Shown here in pieces: positions 35,696 through 45,444 of a stretch of 64,000 bases of DNA (its first letter is position 1; each line of letters starts with the position of its first letter). The notes beneath the pieces were generated by a model that ran no database searches, was not told the DNA's origin, and worked only from the letters and a program-made list of their open reading frames with translations. A program made the translations under genes and the position numbers. The stretch covers positions 62,001 through 126,000 of the forward strand of contig CALWOX010000006.1 in NCBI GenBank assembly GCA_944383265.1. The letters are read 5' to 3'. The stretch comes from an uncultured Lachnospiraceae bacterium (lineage in GTDB: Bacteria > Bacillota > Clostridia > Lachnospirales > Lachnospiraceae).

Positions 35696-37294
35696 ATGGG
35701 AAGGAATAAAAGCAACAGACGAGTCAGGCTCAGGATACTTATGATAGCCGCAGGTGCCGCTGCGGGAGCCATAGCAGGACGCAAGATCGCTAAAAAGCTC
35801 AGGCAGGATGAGGAGAAAAAGATAAATGCCATAGAGGATGCTGTAGTCGCACAGAGAGACTATGGCGACAGGCGGGTATATTTTGTGGGAGGAGGGATAG
35901 CGTCCCTTTCCTGTGCTGCATTTCTTATAAGAGACTGCGGATTTCCCGGAGAAAACATAACTGTGCTTGAGGGAAGAAGCGGAAGGAAAATAAAGGACGA
36001 GATACTGAGCTTTAAACTGTTCCGAAATGCGGCGAAGAGGGTAAGTCTTATTGACAGGGACGGAAAGCTCGAAAATACCGAGCGCACAGGACTTGACAGC
36101 TGTGACAGGATAAAGCTCTTAAGGCTGTCCCTTTCAAAAGAAGCGGGGCTTTACGGAATGACGGTGGAGGATTATTTCGGAAAGGACGGGCATTTCTTTA
36201 ACACCACGATTTGGAGCCTGATGCAGGCTTGCTACGGCATAAAGGAATGCTGCTCTCTTGTTGAATTCAGACGCTTTATAAGGCAAAGGACAGAAGAGAT
36301 TTCCGTTATGGGCCGGAGCTCTGTGAAGACTTCGGCTGAAGAACATTTATGCGAAAATGATTTTGTTTCAGAGGATATTGAAAAATATTTGGAGGATAAG
36401 GGAGTTACTGTTAAAAACGGATGCGAGGTCACGGATATCGACTTTGCCGAAGGGGATGCTGTGACAGCTAAGTGCCTAAAAATAAAGACTGTTGAGGGCG
36501 AAGGCGAGATCAGGCTTAGGGATGAGGATATTTGCATTGTGACAGTGGGCTGTGTCACGGATTGTACAGCGCTCGGTGATACGGACACCCCTGTGGGAGC
36601 GGATCTCGGACATTCTATGTCCTTTGAGCTTTGGAAGCGCATTGCCGATAAGCTCCCGGGAAGATTCGGAAATCCCGAGCCCTTCTTTGAGCGGATTTCG
36701 GATACGTCAGTTGAGGGCTTTACCGCTCGGCTAAAGGGCGACTCCGCTTTAAAAGAGATAATAAATACTGACCTTGTAATGCTTAAGGATTCAAACTGGG
36801 GGCTTGTTTCCTTTGTGCCGGATAAAGATTTAAGGAAAGACCTGTCGGAGGACGAAATCGTAATTTCAGGCTACGGCCTCTATCCCGAGCAAATCGGAGA
36901 CTATGTGAAGAAGCCCATGAAGGAGTGTACAGGAAGGGAGATAATTTTTGAGTATCTTCATCAGCTTAAGCTTGATGAAGAGCGTATATCGGAGCTTATG
37001 GATGCGGTAACAGATGTCATCCCTGAATATATTCCGTATGCCTGTGGGGCGAGGGAGCCGAGGAGAGCGGATGACAGGCCCTTGATAATTCCTGCGGGTT
37101 CGGAGAATTTTGCTGCCATAGGGCAGTTTGTAGAGATGCCTGAGGATGCCACGGCTTTTGAGGAATACTCGGTAAGATCCGCAAGGACAGCTGCATATAA
37201 GGTTATGAATATACAGAGGCCCATAGCCCCTGTGACAAAAAATTCCGGAAGGGCAGGTACGCTTTTAAGAGCCCTTTTCCGCTTCATGAGATAA
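35696..37294 (+). CDS. Oleate-hydratase-like flavoprotein with a membrane-like N-terminus
   Basis: A 532-residue member of the oleate hydratase (MCRA) family. A hydrophobic N-terminal stretch (about 13-28) is followed by a Rossmann FAD site (YFVGGGIASLSCAAFLIRD) and a late family segment (DDRPLIIPAGSENFAAIGQFVEMPEDATAFEEYSVR). Family enzymes hydrate oleic acid to 10-hydroxystearate using FAD as a structural cofactor. In this protein the region that should carry the RGGREM catalytic loop is collapsed (VLEGRSGRKIKDEILSF), and the W-H motif of the second region reads C-C. Activity is therefore doubtful; it may bind fatty acids or have a new reaction. Confidence 0.75.
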   Translation: MGRNKSNRRVRLRILMIAAGAAAGAIAGRKIAKKLRQDEEKKINAIEDAVVAQRDYGDRRVYFVGGGIASLSCAAFLIRDCGFPGENITVLEGRSGRKIKDEILSFKLFRNAAKRVSLIDRDGKLENTERTGLDSCDRIKLLRLSLSKEAGLYGMTVEDYFGKDGHFFNTTIWSLMQACYGIKECCSLVEFRRFIRQRTEEISVMGRSSVKTSAEEHLCENDFVSEDIEKYLEDKGVTVKNGCEVTDIDFAEGDAVTAKCLKIKTVEGEGEIRLRDEDICIVTVGCVTDCTALGDTDTPVGADLGHSMSFELWKRIADKLPGRFGNPEPFFERISDTSVEGFTARLKGDSALKEIINTDLVMLKDSNWGLVSFVPDKDLRKDLSEDEIVISGYGLYPEQIGDYVKKPMKECTGREIIFEYLHQLKLDEERISELMDAVTDVIPEYIPYACGAREPRRADDRPLIIPAGSENFAAIGQFVEMPEDATAFEEYSVRSARTAAYKVMNIQRPIAPVTKNSGRAGTLLRALFRFMR

Positions 37295-37325: not shown

Positions 37326-38819
37326 GTGAGAGGTGCGGGAGTTTTGCTTCCTGTTTTCAGCCTTCCGGGAAAATATGGAATAGGAAGGCTCGGAAAGGAT
37401 GCATTTTGGTTTACAGACAGGTTAAAGGAGGCGGGGCAGAGCTATTGGCAGATATTGCCCACAGGTCCGACGGGCTACGGGGATTCGCCATATCAGCCCT
37501 TCTCAACCTTTGCGGGAAATCCTTATTTTATTGATATAGAGGGCTTTCCCGACTATGTGCTTAAAAGCGAAAGGCTTATGGAAGAGGAGAAGGCTTTTCG
37601 TGAGGATGCGAGATACGTAAATTATGAAAAGCTTTATGAGAGAAACAGGGCTGTACTTTATGAAGCGTATCAGGTGGAAAATTATTGTGGAATAGAGAAA
37701 AACTATCCTGATTTTTCGGAGTTTTGTGAAAAAAACAGCTTTTGGCTTAAGGACTATGCTATGTATATGTCCATTAAGGAAGAAAATGGCGGACTTCCCT
37801 GGTACGATTGGGAGGATGAGCTGAAGCTCAGAGAAAAATCAGCCCTTGAAGCGGCGGAAAGAAGGCTCGGAGACAGCATAAGATTTTACTTTTGGCAGCA
37901 GTATCATTTCATGAAGCAGTGGAAAAAGCTGAAGGAATATGCCAACGAAAACGGTATAAGCATTATAGGCGATATCCCCATATATGTGTCGGCGGATTGT
38001 GCGGATGCCTGGGCTAATCCGAAGCTTTATCAATTTGATGAAAGGTGCAGACCGAAGTCGGTGGCGGGAGTTCCGCCTGACGCCTTTTCGGAGACGGGAC
38101 AGCTTTGGGGAAATCCCGTCTATGACTGGAATTACCATAAGCAGACGGATTACAAGTGGTGGACTTTAAGGATAGAGCATGCCTTCAGCATGTACGATGT
38201 CTTGAGGATAGACCATTTCAGAGGCTTTGACGAATATTACTGCGTTCCCTTCGGAGATAAGGACGCCAAAAACGGGCACTGGGAAAAGGGCCCCGGGCTT
38301 GAGTTTTTCAAGAGGATAAAGGAAAAGCTCGGAGAAAAGCCCATAATCGCGGAGGATCTGGGGCTTCTCACGGACAGCGTGAGAAAGCTTGTAAAGGACA
38401 CGGGCTTCCCCGGAATGAAGGTACTGGAATTTGCGTTCTCAACTTCCGAAAGAAGCGATTATCTTCCCTATAAATGGGATAAAAACTGTGTAGCCTATAC
38501 AGGCACTCATGACAATGAGACTCTGTATACCTGGTTTGACGAGCTCAGCGAGGATGAGCTTTCCTTTGTCACAGATTATCTCGACCTTTCGGGAAGAGAG
38601 AGGATAGAGTATAATGATGCTATGATAAGGCTCCTTCTCGGAAGTGTGGCCGACACCGCCATTATACCGATGCAGGATTGGCTTGGACTTGACTGTAATT
38701 CAAGGATAAATACTCCGTCCACCCTCGGGCTCAACTGGAAGTGGAGGCTTAAAAAAGAGGATTTTTCCGAGAAGCAGGCTGAAAAAATGAGAAAGCTCAC
38801 AGAGCTTTATGAGAGGTAG
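37326..38819 (+). CDS. malQ: 4-alpha-glucanotransferase (amylomaltase)
   Basis: A 497-residue GH77 enzyme starting at GTG 37326, with GAGGAGA 7 bases upstream. Characteristic sequences are LPVFSLPGKYGIG, WQILPTGPTGYGDSPYQPFS, the nucleophile region DVLRIDHFRGFDEYY, PIIAEDLGLLT (acid/base Glu) and YTGTHDNET. It transfers alpha-1,4-glucan segments between chains and is needed for maltodextrin and glycogen turnover in the cytoplasm. It opens an operon of four genes ending with glgB. Confidence 0.93.
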   Translation: MRGAGVLLPVFSLPGKYGIGRLGKDAFWFTDRLKEAGQSYWQILPTGPTGYGDSPYQPFSTFAGNPYFIDIEGFPDYVLKSERLMEEEKAFREDARYVNYEKLYERNRAVLYEAYQVENYCGIEKNYPDFSEFCEKNSFWLKDYAMYMSIKEENGGLPWYDWEDELKLREKSALEAAERRLGDSIRFYFWQQYHFMKQWKKLKEYANENGISIIGDIPIYVSADCADAWANPKLYQFDERCRPKSVAGVPPDAFSETGQLWGNPVYDWNYHKQTDYKWWTLRIEHAFSMYDVLRIDHFRGFDEYYCVPFGDKDAKNGHWEKGPGLEFFKRIKEKLGEKPIIAEDLGLLTDSVRKLVKDTGFPGMKVLEFAFSTSERSDYLPYKWDKNCVAYTGTHDNETLYTWFDELSEDELSFVTDYLDLSGRERIEYNDAMIRLLLGSVADTAIIPMQDWLGLDCNSRINTPSTLGLNWKWRLKKEDFSEKQAEKMRKLTELYER

Positions 38820-38821
38820 AT

Positions 38822-39577
38822 ATGAAAAAATTTGTGTCATGGAATGTGAACGGGCTCAGAGCCATTATGGGCAAGGGCTTTATGGATATTTTCAACGAGA
38901 TAAACGCTGACGCATTCTGTCTTCAGGAGACAAAGCTTCAGGAAGGCCAGATAGAGATGGATATCCCGGGGTATTATGAGTACTGGGATTATGCTGAGAA
39001 GAAGGGATATTCGGGCACGGCGATCTTTGTTAAGGAGAAGCCTCTTTCAGTGCGCTATGGAATAGGCGTTGACGAGCACGACAAGGAGGGAAGGAGCATA
39101 TGCCTTGAATATGAGGACTATTATCTCCTTACGGTGTATGTGCCGAACTCACAAAATGAGCTTCAAAGGCTTGACTACAGAATGACCTGGGAGGATTCCT
39201 GGAGGGAATATGTCTGCGGGCTTGACAAGAAAAAGCCGGTTATATACTGCGGAGACCTCAATGTGGCTCATGAGACCATAGACTTAAAGAATCCTCAGAC
39301 AAACCATCACAATGCGGGCTTTACGGATGAGGAGAGAGCGAAGTTTTCAGAGCTTTTGGACAGCGGCTTTGTGGATTCCTTCAGATATCTCTATCCCGAC
39401 AGGGAGGAGTATTCGTGGTGGTCCTACAGGATGAAGGCCAGAGAGAGAAATGTGGGGTGGAGAATCGATTATTTTGTGGTCTCCGAAAAAATAAAGGATA
39501 AGATAAAGGGAGCAGGGATCCTTACAGACAGATTCGGATCGGATCACGCTCCTGTGGAGCTTTTGATAGATCTCTAA
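38822..39577 (+). CDS. xth: Exodeoxyribonuclease III / AP endonuclease
   Basis: A 251-residue member of the exonuclease III family: FVSWNVNGLRA, CLQETKLQ, YCGDLNVAHETIDLKNP and the C-terminal GSDHAPVEL contain the metal and catalytic residues. It cleaves abasic sites and degrades 3' ends in base excision repair. It lies 2 bases after malQ and 22 before the GH13 gene, an odd place for a DNA-repair gene; cotranscription with glycogen enzymes is probably chance. Confidence 0.95.
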   Translation: MKKFVSWNVNGLRAIMGKGFMDIFNEINADAFCLQETKLQEGQIEMDIPGYYEYWDYAEKKGYSGTAIFVKEKPLSVRYGIGVDEHDKEGRSICLEYEDYYLLTVYVPNSQNELQRLDYRMTWEDSWREYVCGLDKKKPVIYCGDLNVAHETIDLKNPQTNHHNAGFTDEERAKFSELLDSGFVDSFRYLYPDREEYSWWSYRMKARERNVGWRIDYFVVSEKIKDKIKGAGILTDRFGSDHAPVELLIDL

Positions 39578-39599: not shown

Positions 39600-41501
39600 A
39601 TGAAGTACAGAAGGTATAGGTCCGAGGGAACTGCCCCCGATATTTTCGGGGTAAAAGCCTTTAAGGAAGGTGATGAGGTAAGGCTTTGCTTTACTGTGGA
39701 CAGAGACTGTGAGAGCCTGTCGCTGAGGCTTTGGACCAAAAAGAACGGGGCTTACACAGATATCCCTTTTTCTCCTGAGGAAAGGACGGGGGATGTGTGG
39801 AGGCTTTGTATCGGACTTAAGTCTCCTGCGGAAAACATTTACTATAACTACGTGGCTGACGGCGCAGAGTTTACAGACATATATGCGAGATATACGGATA
39901 TTCCCGAGAAGTGGGGGCAGATCCCCTCTGAAAGGCTGGTGAGGGGAATCATAAAAATAAGCGATGAGCTTTGTGAAAACGAGCCTGTAAAGACAGCTTC
40001 GCCAAAACTTGAGTACAGAGACATGACAGTTTACAGGCTCCATGTAAGAGGCTTCACGGAGCATCGCTCCTCGGGTCTCCAGGCAGAGGACAGAGGCCGC
40101 TTTTCGGGAATAGAAAAGAATATAGCTTACCTGAAGGAGCTGGGCGTAAACACTATTGAATTAATGCCTTTTTATGAGTTCAATGAGAGCTTTAAAAAGG
40201 GAAGATTTGAGGAGATACCAAAGGAAAAAACTGCGGTTTTGCCGGCACCTGAAAATGACAGGGTAAATTACTGGGGCTTTACAGGCGATGCTCTGAGATT
40301 TTCTGTGAAGAATGCCTTCGGAGGCGTGGAAGGCCTCAGGTCTCTTGTAAATACTCTTCACAAAAACGGCATGGAGCTGATATGCGACATATATTTTTCG
40401 GGCAATGAGGACACTTTCTATGTACTTTCTGTCCTCAGATATTATGCTATGAACATAGGCGTTGACGGCTTTCATATCATCGGATATGCGCCGTTAAAAG
40501 AAATATGTGCCGATCCCTTTATTAAGGATGTAAAGCTTTGGGCGGACAGCTTTCCTGCGGGTACAGGCAGAAACAGCCTTGCGGCCTGCTGCAATGACGG
40601 CTTTTCCATAGATATAAGAAGATTTCTGAAAGGCGACGAGGGAATGCTTCCCGCCTTTATCGAAAGGACAAAGGAGGGCTCTGTGCCGCCTTACTCCATA
40701 AATTATGTTTCCAATGTAAACGGCTTCAATCTGCGGGATATGGTTAGCTATGACAGAAAGCATAATGAGGCAAACGGAGAGAACGGGACAGACGGAAGCG
40801 ACAGCAATTATTCCTGGAACTGCGGAGTAGAGGGGGAGACCGGCAGAAGGAAGATAAAGGATTTGAGGCTAAGACAGATGAAGAACGCTCTTACCATGCT
40901 TTTCATCTCTCAGGGTACGCCGCTCATACTCTCAGGGGATGAGATGGGACACACGAAGGGAGGAAACAATAATTCCTATTGTCAGGACAATGCGACCGAG
41001 TGGATAAATTGGGCGGATCTTAAGAAAAACTCTGATATATTTGAGTTTGTTAAAAATATGGTAGCCTTCAGAAAGTCCCACAGGATATTTTCCACAGGAA
41101 AAGTCATTACAAATACCGACAGTAAAAGGACAGGACTCCCTGATCTCTCATACCACGGAGAGAGCGCATGGAGGGCGGAGCTTGAGCCCTTCAGGAGGAA
41201 TATCGGACTCCTTTTTAACGGCGAGTATGCCGAAAATGAAGAGGGAAAACCTGATGATCTGATATATGTAGCCGTAAACATGCACTGGGAGGATCACAGC
41301 TTCAGCCTGCCTGAGCCCATGTATGGCTTGAGAATTTCGTCAAAAGATACAAAAAATAATGCAAAACCGATAAAAAAATGGTATAAAATAATTGATACCT
41401 CTCTGAATGACTCCTTTATAGAGCCTGAGCTCTGCGAGAATGGAGAGGCTATGATAAAGGAAAGAAGTATCTCGGTATTTATAGCAAAACAGGGGGCTTA
41501 G
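39600..41501 (+). CDS. Isoamylase-like GH13 pseudoenzyme (altered catalytic residues)
   Basis: A 633-residue protein with an N-terminal CBM48-like region (about 20-120), then a GlgX/isoamylase-type GH13 barrel and a C-terminal beta domain. Structural motifs typical of isoamylases are kept (KHNEANGE, SWNCGVEGETG, LILSGDEMG, NNNSYCQDN). The catalytic triad is not: the nucleophile Asp of GFRFD is Ile294 (GFHII), the acid/base Glu of IAEPW is Asp316 (WADSF), and the stabilising Asp of AHDG is Asn374 (NVNG). Region I loses its Asn and His too (DIYFSGN). The full-length frame suggests a selected non-enzymatic role, perhaps glucan binding or regulation, 3 bases before glgB. Confidence 0.85.
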   Translation: MKYRRYRSEGTAPDIFGVKAFKEGDEVRLCFTVDRDCESLSLRLWTKKNGAYTDIPFSPEERTGDVWRLCIGLKSPAENIYYNYVADGAEFTDIYARYTDIPEKWGQIPSERLVRGIIKISDELCENEPVKTASPKLEYRDMTVYRLHVRGFTEHRSSGLQAEDRGRFSGIEKNIAYLKELGVNTIELMPFYEFNESFKKGRFEEIPKEKTAVLPAPENDRVNYWGFTGDALRFSVKNAFGGVEGLRSLVNTLHKNGMELICDIYFSGNEDTFYVLSVLRYYAMNIGVDGFHIIGYAPLKEICADPFIKDVKLWADSFPAGTGRNSLAACCNDGFSIDIRRFLKGDEGMLPAFIERTKEGSVPPYSINYVSNVNGFNLRDMVSYDRKHNEANGENGTDGSDSNYSWNCGVEGETGRRKIKDLRLRQMKNALTMLFISQGTPLILSGDEMGHTKGGNNNSYCQDNATEWINWADLKKNSDIFEFVKNMVAFRKSHRIFSTGKVITNTDSKRTGLPDLSYHGESAWRAELEPFRRNIGLLFNGEYAENEEGKPDDLIYVAVNMHWEDHSFSLPEPMYGLRISSKDTKNNAKPIKKWYKIIDTSLNDSFIEPELCENGEAMIKERSISVFIAKQGA

Positions 41502-41504
41502 CTT

Positions 41505-43931
41505 ATGGATAAAAAACTATTTGATATAATAAATTGGGCGGATGTGGAAGAAATAACCTATTCCGAATCCTCAGATCCCAAAAGGATACTCGGAGCTCAT
41601 GAGACCGAGGAGGGACTTTTGATCCAGGCATACGTTCCTCATGCAAAGAGTATAAAGGCTGTGCTTGAGGACGGAAAGGAATATGAGCTTTGTGAGGCCG
41701 ACAAAGGATTTTATGTTTGCTTTATCGAAGGACAAAAGCTCTGCGACTACAAATTCAAATTGAAATATGACAATGATTTTGAGGAGATAAAGGAGGACAT
41801 ATATAATCCTAAGTTCAAGGAGAGCTTTGACGAGGAGGATATAAAGAAATTCAAGGCAGGGATCCTTTATGATGCCTATGAAAAGCTGGGAGCACACCCC
41901 TGTGAGAAGGCGGGAGTTTCAGGCGTGAGATTTGCAGTGTGGGCTCCCAATGCCTTGAGAGTCAGCGTTGTGGGAGACTTCAATATGTGGGACGGAAGGC
42001 TCTATGAGATGGAGAGGCTTTCGGACAGCGGAGTTTTTGAGATATTTATCCCCGAGCTTAAGGTCGGAGATCTGTATAAATACGAGGTGAAATTCGGAAA
42101 CAGAGATGTAGGCTTGAGAGCTGATCCCTACGGCTTTTACTCAGAACTGAGGCCTGCCACGGCATCGATCGTATGGGACCAGGACAGCTACAGCTGGCAG
42201 GATGAGGACTGGAAGGAAAAAAGAAGCAAGGTAAATTCAAAGGATTCAGCCATAAATATATACGAGGTACATCTCGGCTCATGGAAAAGAAGGCCTTTAG
42301 CCATAGATGAGAACGGAGAAGAGATAAACGGCTCAGGCTTTTTCAATTACAGAGAGACTGCGGTGGAGCTTGCCGCTTATGTAAAGGAAATGGGTTATAC
42401 ACATATCGAGCTCATGCCTGTAATGGAGCATCCCTTTGACGGATCATGGGGATATCAGGTAACCGGCTATTATGCCCCTACCTCAAGATACGGAGATCCC
42501 GATGATTTCAAGTTTTTCGTGGACTACATGCACAAAGAGGGCATAGCCGTCATCGTGGACTGGGTTCCCGCCCATTTCCCGAGAGATACCTTTGCTCTTG
42601 CAGAGTTTGACGGCACCCATCTTTATGACCATCCGGACCCCAGACTCGGAGCGCACCCTCATTGGGGCACCCTCATATTTAATTATGGCAGGGCTGAAGT
42701 CAGCAATTTCCTCATAGCAAATGCTATGTTCTGGGCTGAAAAGTACCATATCGATGGAATCAGGATGGACGCGGTGGCATCCATGCTTTATCTGGATTAT
42801 GGAAGGAACAACGGAGAGTGGCTGCCAAACATCTATGGCGGAAATGAAAATCTTGTGGCGGTGGAGTTCCTTAAGCACCTCAATTCCATGATGCATAAGC
42901 TCTATCCTGATGTGATAATGATCGCGGAGGAGTCTACCGCATGGCCTATGATAACAGGAAAGGTAGAGGACGGCGGTCTGGGCTTTGACTATAAGTGGAA
43001 CATGGGATTTATGAATGATTTCCTCAGATATATGTCCACTGACCCTTATTTCAGGAAGGACAATTACGGGGCGCTTACCTTCCCCATGTTCTACAATTAC
43101 AGCGAGAATTTTATACTTGTATTCTCTCATGACGAAGTGGTTCACGGAAAGGCCTCCCTCTTGGGAAAGATGGCCGCCGCAGATATGCACGAGAAGGCGA
43201 GACAGCTGAGAGCGGCCTACGGATTCTTTATGACTCACCCCGACAAAAAGCTTCTCTTTATGGGACAGGAGTTTGCCCAAAACGATGAGTGGAGCGAGGA
43301 GAGATCCCTTGAGTGGGAGCTTTTGCAGTATCCTATACATAAAAATATGCAGAGCTATATGAAGGAGCTGAATGCTCTCTACCTTGAGCATCCCGCACTC
43401 TACAAATACGACTATGATCAGAAGGGCTTCGAGTGGATAAACTGCTCCTACCATGAGCTCAGCATTGCAATATTTTTGAGAAAGACGGAAAACCCCGAGG
43501 AGACGCTGCTTGTGGTGAGCAACTTTGACACTATGGCCCACAAGGACTTTAAGATAGGCGTTCCGTTTAAGGGAAATTATAAGGAGATATTCAACTCTGA
43601 CAGCGTAAAATTCGGAGGAAACGGTGAGGGCAACCCCAGAGCAAAGCGCTCAAGAAAAGCGGACTGTGACGGCAGAGAGAATTCAATAAAGATAAATATC
43701 CCTCCCATGAGTGTCCTTGTATTTTCATGTACTCCCACAAAGGAGGAAGAGGAGAAAAAGCCTGAAAAGGGAAAGAGTAATACAAAGAAAACCGTGAAAA
43801 AGACTTCGGCAAAGGTAAAGGAGTCGAAGAAAGACGCTGATGAAAAGACTGCCCGAGGCACGTCAAAGAAAGCTAAGGCTTTGTTGAAGGCTGTAAAGGA
43901 CACTGCAACAAAGATAATTGAGAATAAATAA
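41505..43931 (+). CDS. glgB: 1,4-alpha-glucan branching enzyme with a lysine-rich C-terminal tail
   Basis: An 808-residue GH13 branching enzyme with two N-terminal CBM48-type modules, a catalytic barrel with intact residues (nucleophile Asp in DGIRMDAVAS, acid/base Glu in IAEESTAW, Asp in FSHDEVVHGK) and a C-terminal beta domain. It introduces alpha-1,6 branches into glycogen. The last 64 residues (about 745-808) form a low-complexity tail with 21 lysines plus many Ala, Thr and Ser, beyond the point where the enzyme normally ends. The preceding pseudo-isoamylase gene is 3 bases away. The rest of the glycogen pathway is not in this window. Confidence 0.93.
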   Translation: MDKKLFDIINWADVEEITYSESSDPKRILGAHETEEGLLIQAYVPHAKSIKAVLEDGKEYELCEADKGFYVCFIEGQKLCDYKFKLKYDNDFEEIKEDIYNPKFKESFDEEDIKKFKAGILYDAYEKLGAHPCEKAGVSGVRFAVWAPNALRVSVVGDFNMWDGRLYEMERLSDSGVFEIFIPELKVGDLYKYEVKFGNRDVGLRADPYGFYSELRPATASIVWDQDSYSWQDEDWKEKRSKVNSKDSAINIYEVHLGSWKRRPLAIDENGEEINGSGFFNYRETAVELAAYVKEMGYTHIELMPVMEHPFDGSWGYQVTGYYAPTSRYGDPDDFKFFVDYMHKEGIAVIVDWVPAHFPRDTFALAEFDGTHLYDHPDPRLGAHPHWGTLIFNYGRAEVSNFLIANAMFWAEKYHIDGIRMDAVASMLYLDYGRNNGEWLPNIYGGNENLVAVEFLKHLNSMMHKLYPDVIMIAEESTAWPMITGKVEDGGLGFDYKWNMGFMNDFLRYMSTDPYFRKDNYGALTFPMFYNYSENFILVFSHDEVVHGKASLLGKMAAADMHEKARQLRAAYGFFMTHPDKKLLFMGQEFAQNDEWSEERSLEWELLQYPIHKNMQSYMKELNALYLEHPALYKYDYDQKGFEWINCSYHELSIAIFLRKTENPEETLLVVSNFDTMAHKDFKIGVPFKGNYKEIFNSDSVKFGGNGEGNPRAKRSRKADCDGRENSIKINIPPMSVLVFSCTPTKEEEEKKPEKGKSNTKKTVKKTSAKVKESKKDADEKTARGTSKKAKALLKAVKDTATKIIENK

Positions 43932-44112: not shown

Positions 44113-45444
44113 ATGAAGAAAAAGAGAATTTTAAGCATTCTTATGGCGGGAGCGATGATTATGGCAAGCCCTGTGGCGGCGTTTGCGGAGGAAAATTATG
44201 AGTGGCTGATAGGGGATCCGGAAAGCACGGACACCAGCCTGAGTTGGGTATCTGTAGGTGGAGAGGAAGCGGATGTGGACGGTTCTGATATAAGCGTAAA
44301 GTGGGACAGAACCGATTATCCTGAGGAGTTTGATATAAAAATCAGGGTTGAGGACGGAGACAAGACCAACGATGTGCTGGACCGTTGGATACCCTTGGGG
44401 AGTGGGGCGGCCGTTGCGGACAGCCATACGGTCCACGACTACAATTATGCCAAGGTTGAGGGCCTTAATACAGATGACGGAGGAAAGACTTGGACTTTTA
44501 CGGTAAGAGCCGCTGACGGGGAGACCACTCAGGACTACACTATTTATATAGAGCTTGTGGGCGAAGCTTTCAACTGTGGCCATGATTCTTACGAGTGGGT
44601 GCAGTATGGTGGAGGCGGAGAAGGTGATGTGGGATCCCATGCACAGCGCTGTACTGTCTGCGGAAAGTATAAGCCCGGTTACTCCGGTTCATCGGCTCAT
44701 GTAGAGACAGAAGAATGCGAGTGGGAGCTCATAGACGAGGGCTATCACGAAACTATGGAAAAGGAAGGGCTTGCGGATCTGTATCAGTGCAGTGTGTGCG
44801 GAGCATATCGCGTTCGTGACCGATGGTCAAACAATGACAAGGTTTTGGAAAATGGAGAAGATGTGGACGAGGCGAGAAGGATTGAATCCACAAACGAGTG
44901 GAGAGAGAGCCAGGGAATAGATCCGAGAAGAGATACTCCTTCAATGTATGAGGGAAGACCCGACGAGGAGGAGTTCCTTGATGAGTGGAACGCTGAGATT
45001 GAAGCAAATGAGCAGGCCCGCGAGGAGGCTATGAGCCGTCCCGGAAACGGAACATGGTTAAAGGACGATACAGGATGGTGGTTCCAAAGGCATGAGGGCA
45101 CATATCCCGCAGGAATATGGCAGGAGTGCACTACAGAGGCGGGCTCAGGCTGGTATCATTTTGACGGTGCGGGCTATATGCAGCACGGATGGTTTACAGA
45201 TATCGATGGAAACACCTATTGGCTCCATGACACAGAGGACGGAAACTACGGGGCAATGCTCACAGGCTGGCAGTGGATAGACGGAAACGGAGACGGGCTT
45301 AAGGAGTGCTATTACTTCAATCAGACATCGGGAGCAAACGGACTTCCTCTGGGGGCAATGCTGAGAAATGTGACCACTCCTGACGGTTACACCGTAAATG
45401 CAAATGGAGAGTGGGTAGTAAACGGATTGGTGCAGAAGAGGTAA
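44113..45444 (+). CDS. Secreted protein with Cys/His zinc-knuckle region and cell-wall-binding repeats
   Basis: A 443-residue protein with a Sec signal peptide (MKKKRILS, hydrophobic core, AFA near residue 25). Residues 30-150 are beta-rich and unrecognised. From 155 to 229 there is a pattern of Cys and His (Cys155, His157, His176, Cys180, Cys183, His196, Cys202, His212, Cys226, Cys229) consistent with two metal knuckles. The C-terminal 130 residues carry Trp/Gly-rich repeats (WYHFDGAGYMQHGW, YWLHDTEDGNYGAMLTGWQWIDG) of the choline-binding/cell-wall-binding kind. Likely surface-attached; role unknown. Confidence 0.75.
   Translation: MKKKRILSILMAGAMIMASPVAAFAEENYEWLIGDPESTDTSLSWVSVGGEEADVDGSDISVKWDRTDYPEEFDIKIRVEDGDKTNDVLDRWIPLGSGAAVADSHTVHDYNYAKVEGLNTDDGGKTWTFTVRAADGETTQDYTIYIELVGEAFNCGHDSYEWVQYGGGGEGDVGSHAQRCTVCGKYKPGYSGSSAHVETEECEWELIDEGYHETMEKEGLADLYQCSVCGAYRVRDRWSNNDKVLENGEDVDEARRIESTNEWRESQGIDPRRDTPSMYEGRPDEEEFLDEWNAEIEANEQAREEAMSRPGNGTWLKDDTGWWFQRHEGTYPAGIWQECTTEAGSGWYHFDGAGYMQHGWFTDIDGNTYWLHDTEDGNYGAMLTGWQWIDGNGDGLKECYYFNQTSGANGLPLGAMLRNVTTPDGYTVNANGEWVVNGLVQKR

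Follow-up and report, generated by a model that had tools for sequence, protein, structure and literature searches.

A predicted non-catalytic isoamylase-like protein conserved in Lachnospiraceae and coupled to glgB in one genus

Plant ISA2 is a non-catalytic isoamylase, ancient and conserved, in which at least four of the five catalytic residues are changed in every member examined (PMC12510319). It was also reported that this protein changes faster than its catalytic relatives (PMC12510319), and that it joins ISA1 and raises ISA1 activity (PMC12892837). In a published tree, all eubacterial GlgX proteins except those of Chlamydiae are separate from the plant ISA proteins (PMC12510319). The portions consulted of reviews on gut and prokaryotic glycogen genes present GlgX as a debranching enzyme and mention no pseudo form (PMC10395257, PMC11046441), and the open-access literature searched yielded no account of a pseudo-isoamylase or GH13 pseudoenzyme from bacteria.

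The window analysed here is a stretch of 64,000 nucleotides from an uncultured Lachnospiraceae bacterium, which encodes an isoamylase-like protein designated psGlgX (pseudo-GlgX). ISA2 (GH13_11) and psGlgX are alike in having an isoamylase fold in which the nucleophile and most GH13 catalytic positions are changed, and also in showing one ancient loss kept by selection, an elevated rate of change and, for psGlgX probably, a place in storage-polyglucan metabolism. Unlike ISA2, psGlgX is bacterial, confined to one Clostridia family, shorter, at about 570-700 aa, and marked by two active-site deletions; it is often found in genomes without a catalytic paralogue, and it is coupled to glgB in the genus of the window. 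As with ISA2, the tree, the residues and the dN/dS values describe a conserved clade of isoamylase paralogues that has lost the nucleophile, whereas the catalytic isoamylase that ISA2 has beside it as a partner is absent from the source genome and from 103 of the approximately 155 genera carrying psGlgX. A dedicated glycogen pseudoenzyme had been put forward as new in a previous sequence-only reading of this DNA, a claim that is not supported, plant ISA2 being already known as a non-catalytic isoamylase (PMC12510319). psGlgX is instead a clade-wide bacterial counterpart of a known kind of pseudoenzyme, of which plant ISA2 is the analogue.

With the psGlgX family profile, 425 bits were obtained for ISA1 and 228 for ISA2, so that ISA2 is not the nearest match of psGlgX. 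ISA1 (PDB 9j60, 4okd) is its best match in both structure (TM 0.79-0.80) and profile score; ISA1, unlike psGlgX, is catalytic, and it forms homodimers and ISA1-ISA2 complexes. With GlgX and TreX (GH13_11, TIGR02100; PDB 7u39, 2vnc, 2wsk), psGlgX has in common the overall fold (TM 0.75-0.79), the KHNEANGE, NYSWNCG, GDE and GNNNxYCQDN segments and the outer glucan contacts. Unlike them, it has neither the catalytic triad nor the Asn/His of region I, its active-site loops are shorter by about 60 aa, and its TIGR02100 (NCBIfam) score of 266.7 bits (E 3e-79) is less than half of the curated cut-off of 640.9. An alpha-amylase domain was also detected by Pfam in the window protein. Such matches to GlgX models mean that psGlgX is likely miscounted as a debranching enzyme in surveys of gut bacteria, and glycogen degradation would then be wrongly predicted for a family that is dominant in the gut. 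Additionally, a bacterial pseudo-isoamylase clade distinct from plant ISA2 makes the question raised by plants, why a dead isoamylase should be kept, testable in bacteria, and opens the question of whether a non-catalytic isoamylase controls polyglucan structure by binding alone.

The cluster in the window has the gene order malQ, exodeoxyribonuclease III-like gene, psGlgX and glgB, with the following features:

37326-38819, + strand: malQ, encoding a 4-alpha-glucanotransferase of GH77, with which the conserved cluster begins
38822-39577, + strand: xth/exoA, an exodeoxyribonuclease III-like gene that separates malQ from psGlgX and is conserved in the genus
39600-41501, + strand: psGlgX, isoamylase/GlgX-like protein of 633 aa with catalytic residues lost (ORF, TIGR02100, AlphaFold2, Foldseek)
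40374-40409, + strand: GH13 region I of psGlgX, residues 259-270, ELICDIYFSGNE, with Asn/His lost
40479-40481, + strand: codon 294, Ile at the position of the catalytic nucleophile Asp
40545-40547, + strand: codon 316, Asp at the position of the acid/base Glu
40716-40721, + strand: codons 373-374, Val-Asn at the position of the region IV His-Asp
40722-41012, + strand: retained isoamylase segment, residues 375-471 (KHNEANGE...NYSWNCGxEG...GDE...GNNNxYCQDN...W)
41505-43931, + strand: glgB, long form, with GlgB_N, CBM48, catalytic and C-terminal domains and a Lys-rich tail

The psGlgX frame is open from its ATG start to its stop, with no internal stops over 633 codons, and glgB starts at 41505, after exactly 3 intergenic bases; both the intact frame and the 3-base gap are as the sequence-only reading had given them. 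The window protein was aligned with 160 relatives, comprising 119 psGlgX and 41 catalytic GlgX sequences from many phyla. The canonical nucleophile Asp, present in 41/41 catalytic sequences, is Ile294 in the window protein, the acid/base Glu (also 41/41) is Asp316, and the canonical Asp of region IV (40/40 scorable sequences) is Asn374. All three substitutions had been proposed before and hold in the alignment, as does the loss of the region I Asn/His, in place of which Ser-Gly is found at 267-268. Additionally, the region IV His is Val at 373 and the region II Arg is His at 292, and Asp263 of region I is retained. Homologues had been named as a check on these substitutions, and the Asp/Glu/Asp triad is intact in 0/119 relatives, of which 81 have lost all three residues, 33 retain one and 5 retain two. 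The nucleophile Asp is kept in a single relative (L142), which is without the acid/base Glu and whose region III is gone. Position 294 is occupied by at least 11 different residues across the family, and Glu stands at the acid/base column in 24 of the 120 sequences scored.

The alignment also revealed two active-site deletions that the earlier reading had overlooked. The distance between residues 266 and 290 is 24-26 aa in the 118 measurable psGlgX sequences versus 69-71 in the 41 catalytic ones, a deletion of about 45 aa after region I that is common to the whole family. The second family-wide deletion, of about 14 aa, follows region II (residues 294-311), where the stretch measures 18-19 aa in all psGlgX but one versus 32-33 in catalytic GlgX. 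As judged from the aligned sequences, the first deletion takes away the loop behind region I, and the second takes away part of what comes after region II. A sub-clade of about 570-600 aa (L138-L152, e.g. L141, L146, L148) has also lost most of region III, which in the alignment reads as a further step of active-site erosion. An alternative alignment placing intact catalytic residues nearby was rejected, given that the flanking motifs VDGF..., VKL... and INYV... anchor the alignment. Only 3/119 relatives combine an acidic residue no more than two positions from the site of the nucleophile with a Glu equally close to that of the acid/base, and a coherent GFRFDLA/AEAWD context occurs in 0/119. 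No new acidic barrel residue conserved across the psGlgX family was found in the alignment, and the residues conserved only in this clade (A430, D507, D515, G536 and G541) do not lie near the barrel mouth by sequence position. It is very probable that psGlgX is not a debranching enzyme.

The AlphaFold2 model of psGlgX, built from a 54-row alignment, reached a pLDDT of 86.7 and a pTM of 0.90. In this model the protein has a predicted isoamylase fold, with an N-terminal beta domain, a (beta/alpha)8 barrel and a C-terminal beta domain. When the model was searched with Foldseek, ISA1, with a TM of 0.79-0.80 by query length, ranked first together with S. venezuelae GlgX and TreX; GlgX, TreX and ISA1 together spanned TM 0.75-0.80, and ISA2 was somewhat lower, at 0.72-0.75. 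A control model of a catalytic Butyrivibrio GlgX had a pLDDT of 87.7. The idea that the loop deletion uncovers the conserved 389-391 loop, where the AlphaFold2 confidence dips, was abandoned because the control GlgX dips too, in its NEAN loop at 471-474.

In S. venezuelae GlgX, the sugar at subsite -1 is contacted by W222, Y224, H271, D342, E378, W380 and H449, and the other sugars by R212, E470, N534 and Y536 (PMC9530166). These contacts were mapped onto psGlgX by motif and spacing. The intervals of 20 residues from Streptomyces D450 to E470 and of 86 residues to Y536 are the same as those from N374 to E394 and to Y460, so that E394, N458 and Y460 of psGlgX correspond to E470, N534 and Y536, which are outer glucan contacts. 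E394, D398, D447 and N458 are identical in 119/119 psGlgX sequences, W225 is kept in 118/119, and position 460 is Tyr in 104 and Trp in 15 of the 119. On the other hand, the equivalents of the -1 contacts D342, E378, H449 and H271 are not retained. The -1 cutting subsite of psGlgX thus appears to be gone, with the outer glucan grip kept.

The pattern of conservation runs in the same direction along the chain. Regions I, II, III and the positions just after have conservation values of 0.44, 0.44, 0.37 and 0.32 in psGlgX versus 0.91, 0.90, 0.89 and 0.74 in catalytic GlgX, and the drop is confined to these parts. Across 381-470 conservation is level and about equal to that of catalytic GlgX, which bears out the nearly perfect downstream isoamylase signatures noticed before, and residues 341-350 (RFLKGDE) are more conserved in psGlgX than in catalytic GlgX. 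A CBM48 match was obtained in only 3/34 psGlgX members. A glucan-binding role is plausible because the outer-subsite contacts are retained, and from these residues psGlgX is likely to bind alpha-glucan.

Relatives were drawn from 200 genomes of the same bacterial family, sampled in the manner of one genome per genus, and from GTDB contigs, where many were found at 30-65% identity. Named carriers are almost all Lachnospiraceae, with a few labelled Clostridium, Clostridia bacterium, Bacillota bacterium or Eubacterium. By score thresholds, which make the counts approximate, psGlgX is present in about 155 of the 200 sampled genera and catalytic GlgX in 57, with 52 genera carrying both forms and 103 carrying psGlgX without catalytic GlgX; 69 psGlgX sequences of this sample were read residue by residue, and the TIGR02100 scores of the two classes separate cleanly in the 200 genomes. 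When 391 genomes of the class were searched with the profile, 14 of the 16 from the window's family gave an uninterrupted full-length match. None of the 375 other Clostridia genomes did so, and their only strong matches were ordinary GlgX proteins with a break at the position of the deleted loop.

A maximum-likelihood tree of 66 psGlgX and 29 catalytic sequences, plant sequences being left out, separates psGlgX from catalytic GlgX by one branch with an SH-aLRT of 100, so that the split between pseudo and catalytic forms takes a single change. The catalytic GlgX proteins of Lachnospiraceae group with those of other phyla, apart from the psGlgX clade. The tree therefore indicates a single origin of psGlgX, with which the two common deletions agree. 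In the tree, psGlgX is one clade, by all appearances descended from an isoamylase-type debranching enzyme, and the best explanation is that the hydrolytic centre was lost once, before Lachnospiraceae diversified. Additionally, the conserved location of the locus beside housekeeping genes in many genera suggests vertical descent.

Nei-Gojobori dN/dS values for psGlgX pairs at 64-70% identity are approximately 0.09-0.18, which are rough figures, synonymous substitutions being close to saturated. The identity between the window and L111, its nearest relative, is 62% for psGlgX, compared with 88% for glgB (first 497 residues) and 89% for exoA. By these comparisons psGlgX changes faster than its neighbour genes, yet is clearly constrained. 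The earlier claim that selection maintains a probably non-catalytic isoamylase-like protein is thus borne out by the one clade, the triad intact in 0/119 and the low dN/dS. The fate of the family can also be set against the glycogen pathway: GlgA is found in 153/155 genera with psGlgX versus 41/45 without it (p 0.02, a weak and phylogenetically confounded association), and since 41 of these 45 genera still have GlgA, psGlgX is dispensable for glycogen synthesis as such. The source genome (G000) carries GlgA, GlgB, GlgP and MalQ, and neither a catalytic GlgX nor a GH133 debrancher was found in it. Beyond GlgB and psGlgX it has two GH13 proteins, of which one looks TreS/amylosucrase-like and the other MalZ/cyclomaltodextrinase-like, the latter (C1:168741-169976) being a candidate glycogen debrancher of this genome.

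Within the genus of the window, psGlgX is present in 12 of 25 genomes and in 12/12 of these it lies directly upstream of a long glgB (frames of about 800-890 aa), the glgB start falling -11 to +44 nt from the psGlgX stop, with overlap in three; the 25 genomes do not count as 25 separate events, the genus itself being split in lineages. The exo gene is upstream of psGlgX in 9 of the 11 genus loci besides the window. In the 13 genomes without psGlgX, glgB is either absent or shorter, with 663-695 aa in complete copies. This shorter GlgB has no N-terminal domain, and a Lys-rich tail is possible there too; in the long GlgB of the window (41505-43931) the C-terminal tail contains 30% Lys in its last 70 residues and is probably disordered. 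The coupling represents a concrete two-protein system for purification and tests.

At 38 loci from other genera no glgB was seen beside psGlgX, and a family-wide linkage was not found; the neighbours there are housekeeping genes, which we take, from their sequences, to be gltX, UvrD-like helicase, DUF1292-like and DUF5662-like genes, among others. An exodeoxyribonuclease III-like gene is also near psGlgX in some other genera (L031, L033, L045, L053), and in L047 it is downstream of psGlgX on the other strand. At the examined loci outside the own genus, linkage to glycogen genes was seen only in two genera. In G126 (L175:5307-11238), catalytic glgX, an ABC-F ATPase gene and psGlgX stand in this order on a single strand, with a 4-nt overlap between the first two, and in G133 psGlgX and catalytic glgX are convergent and about 1.6 kb apart. 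The suggestion that psGlgX regulates the branching enzyme has a strong link to glgB behind it within the genus, but cannot be assumed family-wide, given that this link is absent at the 38 loci elsewhere. GlgB is a plausible though uncertain partner of psGlgX in the window's genus, and it may not be the general partner across the family.

With moderate confidence, psGlgX is interpreted as a dedicated pseudoenzyme, a non-catalytic glucan-binding accessory of glycogen metabolism that is here tied to GlgB. What the sequences indicate in its favour is a lost hydrolytic centre, a single clade, purifying selection, retention of the outer cleft and the coupling to glgB in the genus. Against it count the 38 loci elsewhere without glgB, the faster change of psGlgX than of its neighbour genes, the CBM48 match in only 3/34 members and the 41 genera that have GlgA but no psGlgX. 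The protein would grip alpha-glucan chains with its retained outer cleft, without cutting them, and would act as a non-catalytic subunit or scaffold. In the window's genus, it would most likely position or tune GlgB on the growing polymer, in a way that may be likened to ISA2 acting for ISA1 in plants. A wider version, in which a family-specific psGlgX serves most Lachnospiraceae as a glucan-binding subunit of GlgB, and elsewhere of other glycogen enzymes, independently of plant ISA2, is only tentatively proposed.

A regulator or sensor, whose remodelled pocket senses a maltooligosaccharide or another ligand and signals to partners, polymer binding being secondary, is an unlikely reading. It is consistent with a pocket that is emptied and variable on a kept scaffold and with the psGlgX-glgB coupling, and S. 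venezuelae GlgX is itself allosteric, binding c-di-GMP at a site in its dimer (PMC9530166). However, the pocket residues vary across the family, as position 294 illustrates, which makes a common pocket ligand unlikely.

Slightly less probable than a sensor is a heteromeric partner of catalytic GlgX or pullulanase, working exactly as ISA2 does with ISA1, whose activity it raises in the heterocomplex (PMC12892837). The 52 sampled genera that have both forms agree with such a pairing, as do the close genes of G126 and G133, but the 103 genera with psGlgX and no catalytic GlgX argue against it, as does the source genome, where neither a catalytic GlgX nor a GH133 debrancher was found. An obligate pair of the ISA1/ISA2 type with catalytic GlgX is not general, psGlgX being alone in those 103 genera.

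That psGlgX still works as an enzyme, its active site being reorganised so as to give weak debranching or transferase activity, is improbable. The replacement E316D is conservative, Asp263 is kept in the window protein and a fifth of the scored sequences (24/120) have Glu at the acid/base column. Nevertheless, the whole loop between regions I and II is deleted, the only relative with the nucleophile Asp is without the acid/base Glu, and no other acidic barrel residue is conserved only in the pseudo clade. A decaying pseudogene or neutral relic can practically be dismissed, for although psGlgX evolves faster than glgB and exoA and 45/200 sampled genera are without it by the criteria used, the ORF is intact in sampled relatives, dN/dS is about 0.1-0.2, segments are invariant in 119/119 and gene order is conserved, and the low dN/dS with the absence of stops refutes decay for the family.

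Two further proteins of the window were noticed. The one at 44113-45444 begins with what looks like a signal peptide, carries C-terminal repeats similar to those that bind cell walls and has no match in NCBIfam, and the one at 35696-37294 resembles oleate hydratase (NF010584, 346.7 bits, where the cut-off is 567) and has an N-terminal hydrophobic stretch.
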